A DNA stretch of 50,126 nucleotides from Gemmatimonadaceae bacterium. GTDB taxonomy: Bacteria > Gemmatimonadota > Gemmatimonadetes > Gemmatimonadales > Gemmatimonadaceae. Below the pieces are notes generated by a model that was given only the letters and a program-made list of their open reading frames with translations, made no database searches and was not told where the DNA came from. The stretch is taken from assembly GCA_030647905.1 (NCBI GenBank), contig JAUSJA010000002.1:1-50126 (forward strand), written 5' to 3'. Each line of letters begins with the position of its first letter. Position 1 is the stretch's first letter. This document shows, piece by piece, positions 1-6,674 of this stretch. A program made the position numbers and the translations under genes.

Positions 1-289
1 TCGACGAGGAGCTGATGATTCTGGCCCCCTCGAACGGCAACCTCCTTGACGATGTCCGCTTCCTTTCCGCAAAGGGGTAGCCCGTCCTGATACAGGCGGA
101 CGCTCGCATAGGGCAGCTCCAGCGCCGCGATCATCCGGCGAATCCCGCTCCAGATTTCATCAATTGACTTGAGATGCTCCGTCCACTTTTCGTGGCCGTA
201 GCGGGTGACGTACTCCTGCTTGATCTGCTCGAGCAGCGACCCCATATCCTGTTCGGTATGAATAATCGGAACCACAATGAGCGTGCGCA

Positions 290-290
<1 letters not shown>
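1..290 (-). CDS. Unrecognised conserved-looking protein, 5' part only
   Basis: An open frame starts at ATG (288-290 on the minus strand) and runs without a stop to the window edge, giving the first 96 or so residues. It begins MRTLIVVPIIHTEQDMGSLL and later contains LPYASVRLYQDGLPLCGKE. No signal peptide or membrane segment is visible, and the mix of acidic, basic and hydrophobic residues looks like a soluble cytoplasmic protein. I do not recognise the family. It lies 88 bases downstream of the stop of the kinase receiver domain on the same strand, so it could be co-transcribed with the kinase. The reading frame is convincing because codon use is good and the frame is open to the edge; the function is unknown. 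Confidence 0.6.
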
Positions 291-4327
<4,037 letters not shown>

Positions 4328-4452: not shown

Positions 4453-5538
4453 TCACGGGCGTAGTGTGTTGCACGCGGGCGGGCGCTCGTACGTGTCCAC
4501 GAACTGCCGATACAGCGCTTGCTCAGCGCGCGTGAGGTCGCCCGCCTCGAGCCGAACGCGGAACAGCACCTGCGCGCGGCGCACATGGCTCGCGAGCCCT
4601 TGGTTGCGCCCGTTGGGGGTCGCATGGGCGAGCAGTCGCCGCCTGAGGTTCTTCGCCTTCCCCAGGTAGATGATGCCCGCGCAGCGCCGCTCGTACCCCG
4701 GCTGGCCGGGGGCGAGGCGGAGCTCGTAGACGCCCGCTGCCTGCGGGGCCCCCTGAAGGATGCCCGGCCGCGCCAACGTACGGAGCGCGGAGAAATCCAT
4801 CGTCGTCGCCATGTAGCCACTGCGGCGAGCGCGTACGCTCGCGCCCGGCACGCCCAGGGACTTCCGGCAGTATGCCACGAGCCGGCGGGACACGCGCATT
4901 CCCGCGCGCCGCGGCACGCGACACGCGAGTTCCTCATCGGTCCAGGCTCCCAGGAGGAGCCCTTGCTCGCGAAGCCACCGTTCGCGCGCGAGCACGTCGC
5001 GCAGCAGCGCCCGCAGGACGGCTCGCGAGCTCACACAGAGTGCCCGGAGCGGCAGGGGCGCGCCGGTGGGCAGGAGCACCACCGTCGAGCGCAACACGCG
5101 CGAAACGCGGCTCGCATCGGCCACCGCGAGACGGGCGCGTGCCTGGCGCACGACTTGGCGCTCGGTCAGGACCACGAGCCGGGTCTCGGCGCCCGTGCAC
5201 AGAAAGTCGGGCTGCGCGCCGATGAGCACCCGGACGACCTCGTGGGCAATGCGGTTTCTCGTGCTGACGAGCAGCAAGGTCCGCACGGCGCGCCGGATGT
5301 CTTCCGAACATTCCCCGTCCGCGGGCGCCATCCAGGCCCCGAGGCGATGCCAGTCCACCGTGTACTCACAGCCGAAGTAGAGCGAGCGCCAGACGAGGTG
5401 CGGCGTCTCGTTCCGTACCCGGACCTGAGCGAAGACCCCGTCGGGGCCGTGCGCGACGGGCGCGTGGCTGGCCCCCGGCAGGAGCGTGCGGCACAACGCG
5501 GGGGTGGCTCCGTCGAACAGGCCAGCGCGCCGCGCCAC
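4453..5538 (-). CDS. RpoN (sigma-54)-like DNA-binding protein fused to a C-terminal GIY-YIG nuclease domain
   Basis: Numbering from GTG 5538 gives 361 residues. Residues about 85-240 resemble the C-terminal half of sigma-54. They show a core-binding-like helix with STRNRIAHEVVRVLIGAQ and DFLCTG, an HTH-like LTERQVVRQARARLAVADAS followed by RVSRVLRS, then LPTGAPLPLRALCVSS in the place of the usual SPRGxFxLKxFFSS. An RpoN-box-like SRRLVAYCRKSLGVPG (usual ARRTVAKYRE...LGIP) is at about 216-231. Residues 269-361 are a GIY-YIG domain: GVYELR, IIYLGKAKNLRRRLLAH, and the later Glu in LTRAEQALYRQF. The sigma-54 activator-interacting region is absent. The frame stays open to 5823, but beyond 5670 it only translates CRISPR repeats, so the gene is either naturally short or was cut at its 5' end by the array. 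The start is uncertain because meaningful-looking sequence (GKIVLARFLERPPASV) lies upstream of 5538. Function is unknown. Confidence 0.7.
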   Translation of the reverse strand: MARRAGLFDGATPALCRTLLPGASHAPVAHGPDGVFAQVRVRNETPHLVWRSLYFGCEYTVDWHRLGAWMAPADGECSEDIRRAVRTLLLVSTRNRIAHEVVRVLIGAQPDFLCTGAETRLVVLTERQVVRQARARLAVADASRVSRVLRSTVVLLPTGAPLPLRALCVSSRAVLRALLRDVLARERWLREQGLLLGAWTDEELACRVPRRAGMRVSRRLVAYCRKSLGVPGASVRARRSGYMATTMDFSALRTLARPGILQGAPQAAGVYELRLAPGQPGYERRCAGIIYLGKAKNLRRRLLAHATPNGRNQGLASHVRRAQVLFRVRLEAGDLTRAEQALYRQFVDTYERPPACNTLRP

Positions 5539-5670
5539 GTCCTCCGCCTTCAGCGCGGCCGCCAGGACGGACGCCGGCGGCCGCTCCAGGAAGCGCGCGA
5601 GGACGATCTTGCCGATGAGCGTGGAACGTGTCGCGGTTGAGAACGTCGTCCTTGATGGGTTCAGCAACAA

Positions 5671-5899
5671 GTGCTCAACGCCTTTCGGCATCACAGAAAA
5701 CGACACCAGTCTGCGGAGTCCATCCATGTCCGGTTTGTGAATGTGCTCAACGCCTTTCGGCATCACAGAAAACGACACTGAGTCGTAGAGTGGTGATCGC
5801 CTTCCACTAAGTCGCGTGCTCAACGCCTTTCGGCATCACAGAAAACGACACGATGCGGCCCATATTCGTGCCGCTCATTTCCTGGAAGTGCTCAACGCC
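5671..5899 (-). CRISPR. Short orphan CRISPR array: three 36-bp repeats plus a 12-base remnant of a fourth
   Basis: Identical 36-bp repeats lie at 5671-5706, 5743-5778 and 5816-5851, separated by unrelated spacers of 36 (5707-5742), 37 (5779-5815) and 36 bases (5852-5887). At 5888-5899 only the first 12 bases (GTGCTCAACGCC, plus strand) of a fourth repeat remain before the sequence diverges. On the minus strand each repeat reads GTGTCGTTTT...GTTGAGCAC and contains ATGCC-GAAA-GGCGT, a 5-bp stem with a GNRA loop. That suggests minus-strand transcription, with the leader on the right where the truncated repeat is. No cas gene is present. The repeat resembles the GCCGAAAGGCGTTGAGCAC class of class 1 systems, but the subtype cannot be fixed from the repeat alone. 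Frames crossing the array (VSFSVMPKGVEH) are spurious. Confidence 0.93.
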
Positions 5900-5985
5900 A
5901 AGCGGCCGCAGTCTGATCTGGGAGGTCTTTCACCCGCGCAGGTAAGCCGGCTGCTCGCGGCCGATTGGGCGGATGGTGATGGTGT
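5894..5985 (+). pseudogene. 5' scrap of an unrecognised gene fused to the broken CRISPR repeat
   Basis: Directly after the truncated repeat the plus strand reads NAKRPQSDLGGLSPAQVSRL then LAADWADGDG. This looks like a real N-terminal protein segment; the GLSPAQ...RLL pattern is reminiscent of N-termini of several uncharacterised bacterial proteins. Meaningful sequence stops by about 5985, and the 108-bp direct repeat begins at 6019. The scrap is therefore bounded by a rearrangement on each side. No start, function or full family can be assigned. Confidence 0.35.
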
Positions 5986-6154: not shown

Positions 6155-6674
6155 ATCGTGGACTGCTCCTGGATGTCCACCGGGCAGGTGATGTGCGCCA
6201 CGCTGCGACCAGCCAGCGCCGCGCGGCAGCCGGCGTCAACCAGGCTGCGTGCGTGTGCGGCGCCCATCACCTGCTGATGAAGCAGGCCACATCTTTGAAG
6301 AGCGCGAGGAGATCCACCTCCTGCTGGTAGTGCATGCCGAGCAGGTCGTGGTAGGTCTGGCCCGTGATGGCCAGCACCGGCGCGCCGTCGAGTTTCGCGT
6401 CGTAGAGCCCGTTGAGGAGATGGATCGCTCCCGGCCCCGAGGTGGCGAGGCAGACGCCGAGCCGGCCCGTGTACTTGGCGTAGGCGCAGGCCATGAACGC
6501 CGCCGCCTCTTCGTGGCGCACATGGATGAAGCGAACACGGTCTTGCCGGACGCGCAGCGCCTCCATGATCCCGTTGATGCCGTCCCCAGGAAGGCCGAAG
6601 ATCGTGTCCACGCCCCAGTCGAGCAGGCGATCCACGAGGATCTCGGCGGTCGTGTACTTCTTGTCGGAGCTCAT
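6155..6674 (-). pseudogene. Truncated, frameshifted thiamine-diphosphate enzyme (pyruvate oxidase/acetolactate synthase-like), N-terminal part
   Basis: From ATG 6674 the frame gives 135 residues typical of the N-terminal Pyr domain of TPP enzymes: TTAEILVDRLLDWGVDTIFG with the family Gly-rich GLPGDGINGIMEAL, the catalytic Glu in RHEEAAAFMA, and CLATSGPGAIHLLNGLYDAK. It stops at 6267-6269 (TGA). In the next frame the homology simply continues, with VMGAAHARSLVDAGCRAAL and HITCPVDIQEQ, down to about 6155. One frameshift therefore interrupts it near 6270. The gene is then cut off by the direct repeat at 6140, leaving about 170 of the usual 550-600 residues. The FAD/TPP-binding domains are missing, so it cannot be a working enzyme. 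Confidence 0.8.

Follow-up and report, generated by a model that had tools for sequence, protein, structure and literature searches.

The locus and the fusion gene

The window, that is, the whole stretch of 50,126 nucleotides of Gemmatimonadaceae DNA that was analyzed, carries on its minus strand a gene that joins the DNA-binding half of sigma-54 to a GIY-YIG nuclease domain. It is followed by a gene for a sensor kinase, and a -24/-12-like site with a tetranucleotide tract lies between these genes. On its other side, the fusion gene borders an orphan CRISPR array. The features are listed in Table 1.

Table 1. Features of the fusion locus in the window
Feature	Coordinates	Strand	Remarks
Partner gene, PilJ-HAMP-PAS-GAF-PAS-HisKA-HATPase sensor kinase	290..4327	-	frame open from a TTG start at the present repeat number
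Degenerate second site CGG-N8-TTGA and interrupted poly-Glu tract, partner PAS region	3218..3248	-	TRF row 3205-3235
Tetranucleotide tract	4276..4311	-	TRF, 9 copies of CTGC on the plus strand = (GGCA)8 after TTGCGCA
TGGAACGAACGTTGC, -24/-12-like site TGG-N8-TTGC	4312..4326	-	overlaps the partner's start codon
Fusion gene	4453..5670	-	putative region-I-like N terminus, ELH-HTH, RpoN box, GIY-YIG; 405 aa from the likely TTG start
GIY-YIG nuclease domain	4456..4818	-	structure match to UvrC, T4 EndoII and Eco29kI; motif residues invariant
Sigma54_DBD match (ELH-HTH and RpoN box)	4831..5268	-	Pfam PF04552 at 130-275 of a 400-aa query
RpoN-box counterpart, two Arg aligned to R455/R456	4861..4890	-	both Arg invariant in 27/27
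Orphan CRISPR array, not part of the system	5671..5906	.	three perfect 36-nt repeats and a degenerate fourth

The region 4453..5823 on the minus strand is one open frame without a stop. The gene likely starts at the TTG directly after the last CRISPR repeat, and the 51 codons of the frame before this start merely read through the CRISPR repeats. The first-pass annotation had proposed a two-domain fusion in this frame, and Pfam, 27 full-length homologues and structural matches of an AlphaFold2 model all bear this out. The Sigma54_DBD profile matches the window protein with an E value of 1.8e-5 (24.9 bits; gathering score, 22.8) and matches all 27 family members at E≤0.1, the best at 5.5e-12. 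The best sequence match among solved structures is Aquifex RpoN (5ui5, E=2.1e-4), and profile-profile comparison (hhalign) with an RpoN from the same phylum, Gemmatimonad RpoN, gave E=5e-9 and P 95.9. The GIY-YIG match is weak in the window copy (E=0.22); it reaches E≤0.1 in 26 of the 27 family members and passes the gathering score in the Sulfuricystis member. A sequence search of the GIY-YIG part alone against the PDB gave no meaningful match.

The AlphaFold2 model, built from 22 homologues, has a mean pLDDT of 87. Its residues 13-284 align to Escherichia coli sigma-54 (8f1k_M, 11..477) with a Z score of 15.3 over 232 residues and an rmsd of 5.8, and the solid part of this alignment is that from model residue 74 onward on sigma-54 residue 270 onward. 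Residues from about 285 to 405 align to the GIY-YIG domain of UvrC (1yd6, Z 9.6) and to T4 EndoII, with Z scores of 9.4-9.6. The GIY-YIG residues G-V-Y, Y-x-G, R, H, E and the C-terminal N are invariant in all 27 sequences, even though the most divergent of them share 28-33% identity with the window protein. The dN/dS ratio of the fusion gene is 0.15-0.22 (0.22 between the window and locus L015).

The first-pass annotation had assigned the sigma-54-like part to the core-binding, HTH and RpoN-box half. The matched elements are the ELH-HTH and the RpoN box, and the RNA polymerase core-binding domain is the part that is missing: it has no Pfam match in the fusion protein, 405 aa leave no space for it, and the range of the structural alignment agrees. 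The accompanying claim that the activator region is lacking is less clear-cut. The model has helices at residues 12-28 and 32-48, inside the stretch aligned with sigma-54 region I, and the hhalign sequence match there is nonsignificant. A frameshift or an assembly join as the source of the fusion was ruled out, because the 27 full-length homologues are intact and keep the same domain order without exception. The gene is therefore an intact, single-frame fusion of the sigma-54 DNA-binding half with a GIY-YIG nuclease domain.

Distribution of the family

A related Gemmatimonad has a homologue at 65%, and more distant members (29% over 97% of the length) are found on plasmids of Sulfuricystis and Diaphorobacter. 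A genome scan found 25 loci, almost all of them in betaproteobacterial MAGs and isolates (for example, Gallionella, Sideroxydans, Rhodoferax and Thiobacillus). In the order of one carrier, 6 of 349 genomes matched, one of them with a truncated copy. The distribution is patchy and spans two phyla. Phages, IMG/VR and PHROGs contained no phage or viral member, and a phage origin of the fusion was rejected on that result.

On the Diaphorobacter plasmid pDCB1 (L014, 16164-21918), the unit lies near a recombinase and a Tn3-family transposase. Small ORFs beside it recur with equal sizes in two MAG loci, L032 and L033, which suggests recent transfer on a mobile element. A decayed copy (L083, G547:C16) encodes the fusion without its N-terminal half; a leader tract of 5 units remains, and the partner is cut short with other genes behind it.

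The partner gene is a PAS-containing sensor

Where the next gene could be read, it lies on the same strand as the fusion gene, and in nearly all loci it encodes a PAS-containing signaling protein. Most betaproteobacterial partners are protoglobin-PAS-GGDEF-EAL proteins, and the remaining partners are PilJ-HAMP-PAS proteins with a kinase or GGDEF-EAL output. The genes upstream of the fusion differ between loci. The tabulation of neighbors that the first-pass annotation had called for thus identified the sensor gene, and not CRISPR, as the conserved neighbor.

In the window, at about 750-800, there is a frameshift or sequence error in the partner between the HATPase and the receiver domain, which is encoded in another frame (ORF 379-1038). 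In L015, a response-regulator domain and the kinase share one frame. By eye, window positions 6267-6674 hold an apparently truncated N-terminal fragment of a thiamine-pyrophosphate enzyme of the pyruvate oxidase/acetolactate synthase type.

A sigma-54-like site and a tetranucleotide tract lead into the partner gene

The gap between the fusion and the partner contains the same element in all loci, TGGAA-N6-TTGCGCA-(RGCA)n, with the unit AGCA in betaproteobacteria and GGCA in Gemmatimonads. Its TGG overlaps the partner's start codon (ATGG, GTGG or TTGG). The TGG-N8-TTGC spacing is the -24/-12 geometry of sigma-54 promoters, and the tract starts immediately after it. This conserved pairing of site and microsatellite, which the first-pass annotation had not noted, is the central result. 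The tract is present in all tabulated fusion loci, which are related by descent, with n=2-31; many of these loci come from MAGs, in which assembly errors are possible in long tracts. L082 has a tract so long that it leaves a gap in the assembly. GG-N8-TTGC is exact in every tabulated locus except the near-identical pair L016 and L017, which have one extra base.

One leader frame in three enters the partner gene or, in the Gallionella group, stops at a codon overlapping the partner's ATG. The other two frames stop within about 20 codons. In the window, the leader with its 8 units is in frame with the kinase. According to the frame tables, gain or loss of one 4-nt unit shifts the frame, as in a phase-variable SSR gene; in the predicted OFF states, internal start codons could keep some expression. 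L016 and L017 keep the TTGCGCA-repeat DNA while the encoded peptide frame differs, which argues that the leader element functions at the DNA level.

Three of 201 genomes from the window's order had the tract pattern, and two of these were the fusion carriers. The third match (G047) was a chance match in coding sequence and was set aside. L038 (G430:C11) has a duplicated leader, in the order fusion, tract, GGDEF gene, second leader and tract, and then the protoglobin gene.

A second site precedes a GAA tract inside the partner gene

In 24 of the 26 partner genes that could be read, a poly-glutamate stretch in the PAS domain is encoded by a pure (GAA)6-14 tract directly after a second GG-N8-TTGC, which lies roughly 1 kb into the coding sequence. 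The two exceptions are the window and L028, and in both TTGC has become TTGA and the tract is interrupted. In all 16 partner genes with a readable RLAE motif, the Leu-Ala of the internal site is spelled CTT-GC, which these genes use for 34 of their 224 other Leu-Ala pairs. Therefore, the base sequence, and not the protein alone, is constrained at the internal site.

Tracts accompany the fusion and differ in length between close copies

Protoglobin-type homologues were also compared in five fusion-free genomes, and all five lacked both tracts. One of these homologues, that of G524, retains the internal site followed by just (GAA)3 and has a one-unit leader that has lost its TGG. This homologue lies in what looks like a flagellar gene cluster.

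Across all fetched DNA we counted 70 distinct runs of 3- to 4-nt units, and 67 begin at GG-N8-TTGC; loci were partly fetched for their tracts, so this count reports spacing specificity and not genome frequency. The remaining three are two runs at assembly gaps and one (CAG)5. In the 24 fusion-carrying genomes, every pure (GAA)≥6 tract but one lies at such a site, and the five fusion-free genomes have no pure (GAA)≥6 tract. Pure (GCAR)≥4 tracts in fusion genomes also lie at sites, apart from a few exceptions. The tracts without a site in fusion genomes are an hsdS (GCAA)8 and a (GCAG)4 in G424 and a (GAA)6 in G430. The first, at position 2428 of L216 (G424:C51), is a pure tract that ends a type I restriction specificity-like gene without TGG-N8-TTGC and is probably an ordinary phase-variable hsdS. 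The (GAA)6, at position 753 of L218 (G430:C50), encodes poly-Glu in another PAS protein.

G480 has a single fusion gene and, unlinked to it, a sensor gene with both sites, a leader of about 28 units and (GAA)9. No fusion lies within 12 kb upstream of this sensor gene. This arrangement suggests action in trans, and G480 is the one genome in which a true unlinked target was seen. Orphan copies of the leader pattern were sought in 23 fusion genomes and discarded, since every extra match had the fusion or a duplicated leader nearby. Matches to the tract pattern in IMG/VR were chance matches only, with mixed units within coding regions.

Close copies differ in repeat number. L014, L032 and L033 are separated by 0-1 substitutions in 4.2 kb, and they have 4, 5 and 5 RGCA units and 8, 14 and 13 GAA units, respectively, with no other indels. 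L034 to L036 differ by 19-38 substitutions over 1.6 kb, and their sole indel amounts to a single repeat unit of the leader. Close relatives thus vary in tract length here, as at an SSR locus. In sum, the association of the fusion, the sites and the tracts is solid, and the existence of a conserved unit is near certain.

Proposed mechanism

We suggest that the sigma-54-like module directs the nuclease to the sites and so drives repeat-length changes that switch and tune the sensor, and we put the probability of this reading at roughly 0.58. In its fuller form, the protein would be a dedicated microsatellite mutator that binds TGG-N8-TTGC, acts on the following repeat in cis and in trans, and switches (4-nt steps) and tunes (3-nt steps) sensor genes; we favor this form too, by a slightly smaller measure. 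We observe the fusion and its conservation, the sites and tracts, their strict association and their variation in length; we infer binding and cutting at the site, a causal role of the protein in the length changes, and the effect on physiology.

In this scenario, a sigma-54 would have become a site-directed nuclease by losing its RNA polymerase core-binding domain and acquiring a GIY-YIG domain. The RpoN box and the HTH would read TGG-N8-TTGC, with GG at -24 and GC at -12. In sigma-54, the RpoN box occupies -24, where R455/R456 are needed, and region I and the ELH-HTH are placed at -12 and deform the DNA immediately downstream (PMC7175178). Since the RpoN box lies upstream at -24 in sigma-54, the C-terminal nuclease would have to reach over to the repeats via a linker. 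It would then nick or cut at the first repeat units, which adjoin the -12 element, and the number of units would change when the lesion is repaired by slippage or annealing. In the leader, 4-nt steps would move the frame, and roughly a third of the repeat numbers would fuse the leader to the sensor or couple the two, giving phase variation. Within the partner, 3-nt steps would make the poly-glutamate loop of the PAS domain longer or shorter and so tune the sensor. There is a precedent for a GIY-YIG endonuclease that drives tandem amplification in cis and in trans, SegB (PMC13096335). One suggestion of the first-pass annotation, a regulator that cleaves its own sites, comes close to this evidence, although its cleavage step is likewise inferred.

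Other points weigh against the site-directed nuclease as well. Co-occurrence in cis can also reflect common inheritance of a mobile unit, the loci are not phylogenetically independent, and plain polymerase slippage would make tracts of this kind vary with no nuclease involved. The few tracts without a site in fusion genomes count against it too.

Alternative explanations

The fusion may instead be a DNA-binding regulator of the -24/-12-like site, with the repeats as a spacing or frame device that varies by plain slippage and with a minor or other role for the GIY-YIG domain. A protein bound at the leader site could block expression, because this site overlaps the partner's start codon, and a repressor that flanks a phase-variable repeat is known, NadR (PMC2791445). 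However, a regulator would not predict the interrupted tracts at broken sites or the absence of tracts without the fusion; the second site lies far inside a coding region, and the whole GIY-YIG motif has stayed invariant across divergent members. We consider this explanation unlikely.

The unit might also be selfish, a homing-type or transposon-borne nuclease that cuts sigma-54-like sites, with the repeats as repair scars and the sensor as a hitchhiker. The patchy spread over two phyla, the plasmid locations and the neighboring Tn3-family transposase fit such an element, and an intact site next to the gene is what a cutting nuclease would meet repeatedly. Homing endonucleases, however, normally insert into their own site and thereby destroy it, and here the gene does not interrupt its site: the sites are intact beside the gene and inside the partner. 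The partner, both sites and the poly-Glu position are also conserved between phyla, and viral members are absent from the collections searched. A selfish origin is thus a rather doubtful explanation.

Still less probable, in our view, is an ordinary SSR contingency locus whose leader contains a true sigma-54 promoter, at which the fusion would act as a competitor of sigma-54 and the tract would change by plain slippage. Phase variation by SSR needs no dedicated enzyme (PMC11868660), and TGG-N8-TTGC fits the consensus geometry of sigma-54 promoters (PMC3844500). Against this, the identical geometry precedes a different repeat inside a coding sequence, where a promoter is not expected, and pure repeats of these units are nearly confined to the sites in fusion genomes.

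A defense or CRISPR-associated nuclease, the role to which the first-pass annotation had pointed because the orphan array abuts the window gene, is highly improbable: the 28 other member loci have no CRISPR-like array, the genome assembly has no detectable Cas1, PADLOC and PHROGs gave no match for the fusion, and the conserved neighbor is the sensor gene. The perfect repeats at 5671, 5743 and 5816 belong to the genome's only array, and because no other member has one beside it, this neighbor is a local coincidence.

Relation to known systems

The fusion shares with sigma-54 (RpoN) the fold and sequence of the ELH-HTH and RpoN box, the two -24 arginines and the site geometry GG-N10-GC; judged from the model, its N terminus may also be region-I-like. 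Unlike sigma-54, it has no core-binding domain, is shorter at about 405 aa and has an appended GIY-YIG domain, and it scores far below the NCBIfam RpoN cutoffs. We therefore conclude that it is not a sigma factor. With the GIY-YIG nucleases (UvrC/Cho, I-TevI, Seg, Eco29kI and T4 EndoII), it shares the fold and the motif residues, among them the C-terminal Asn described for the UvrC-type lineage (PMC1564403), but its DNA-binding part is derived from sigma-54. The 2006 survey of the GIY-YIG superfamily makes no mention of sigma. SegB of T-even phages is likewise a GIY-YIG nuclease tied to changes in repeat number in cis and in trans; unlike the present unit, it amplifies large segments by recombination, not 3- to 4-nt microsatellites, and has no sigma-54 module (PMC13096335).

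The leader resembles the tetranucleotide SSR genes of Haemophilus, Moraxella and Neisseria, in which a repeat in the 5' reading frame alters the frame when units change. Here, in contrast, the tract comes with a nuclease gene and a fixed site, and the sensor gene also contains another tract, this one in frame. We know of no dedicated enzyme for tetranucleotide SSR phase-variable genes. The invertases Hin and FimB/FimE are also dedicated DNA enzymes encoded beside their switch, as the fusion would be, but they are recombinases that act by inversion, whereas this unit has a nuclease and repeats. Our literature searches for GIY-YIG with phase variation, protoglobin or tandem repeats returned no description of such a system, and the word "nuclease" is absent from a review of phase variation (PMC11868660).

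Repeat-based phase variation is usually explained as passive slippage at tracts kept by selection. The unit of fusion, site and tract may instead serve as a dedicated switch for the purposeful mutation of a sensor gene. If so, the cell would direct mutation in a new way, through an enzyme that targets chosen sites and destabilizes their repeats; the sigma-54 fold would have taken on a new fate, and programmable repeat instability would gain a natural tool. The finding makes it testable whether bacterial microsatellite instability can be actively driven at a defined locus.
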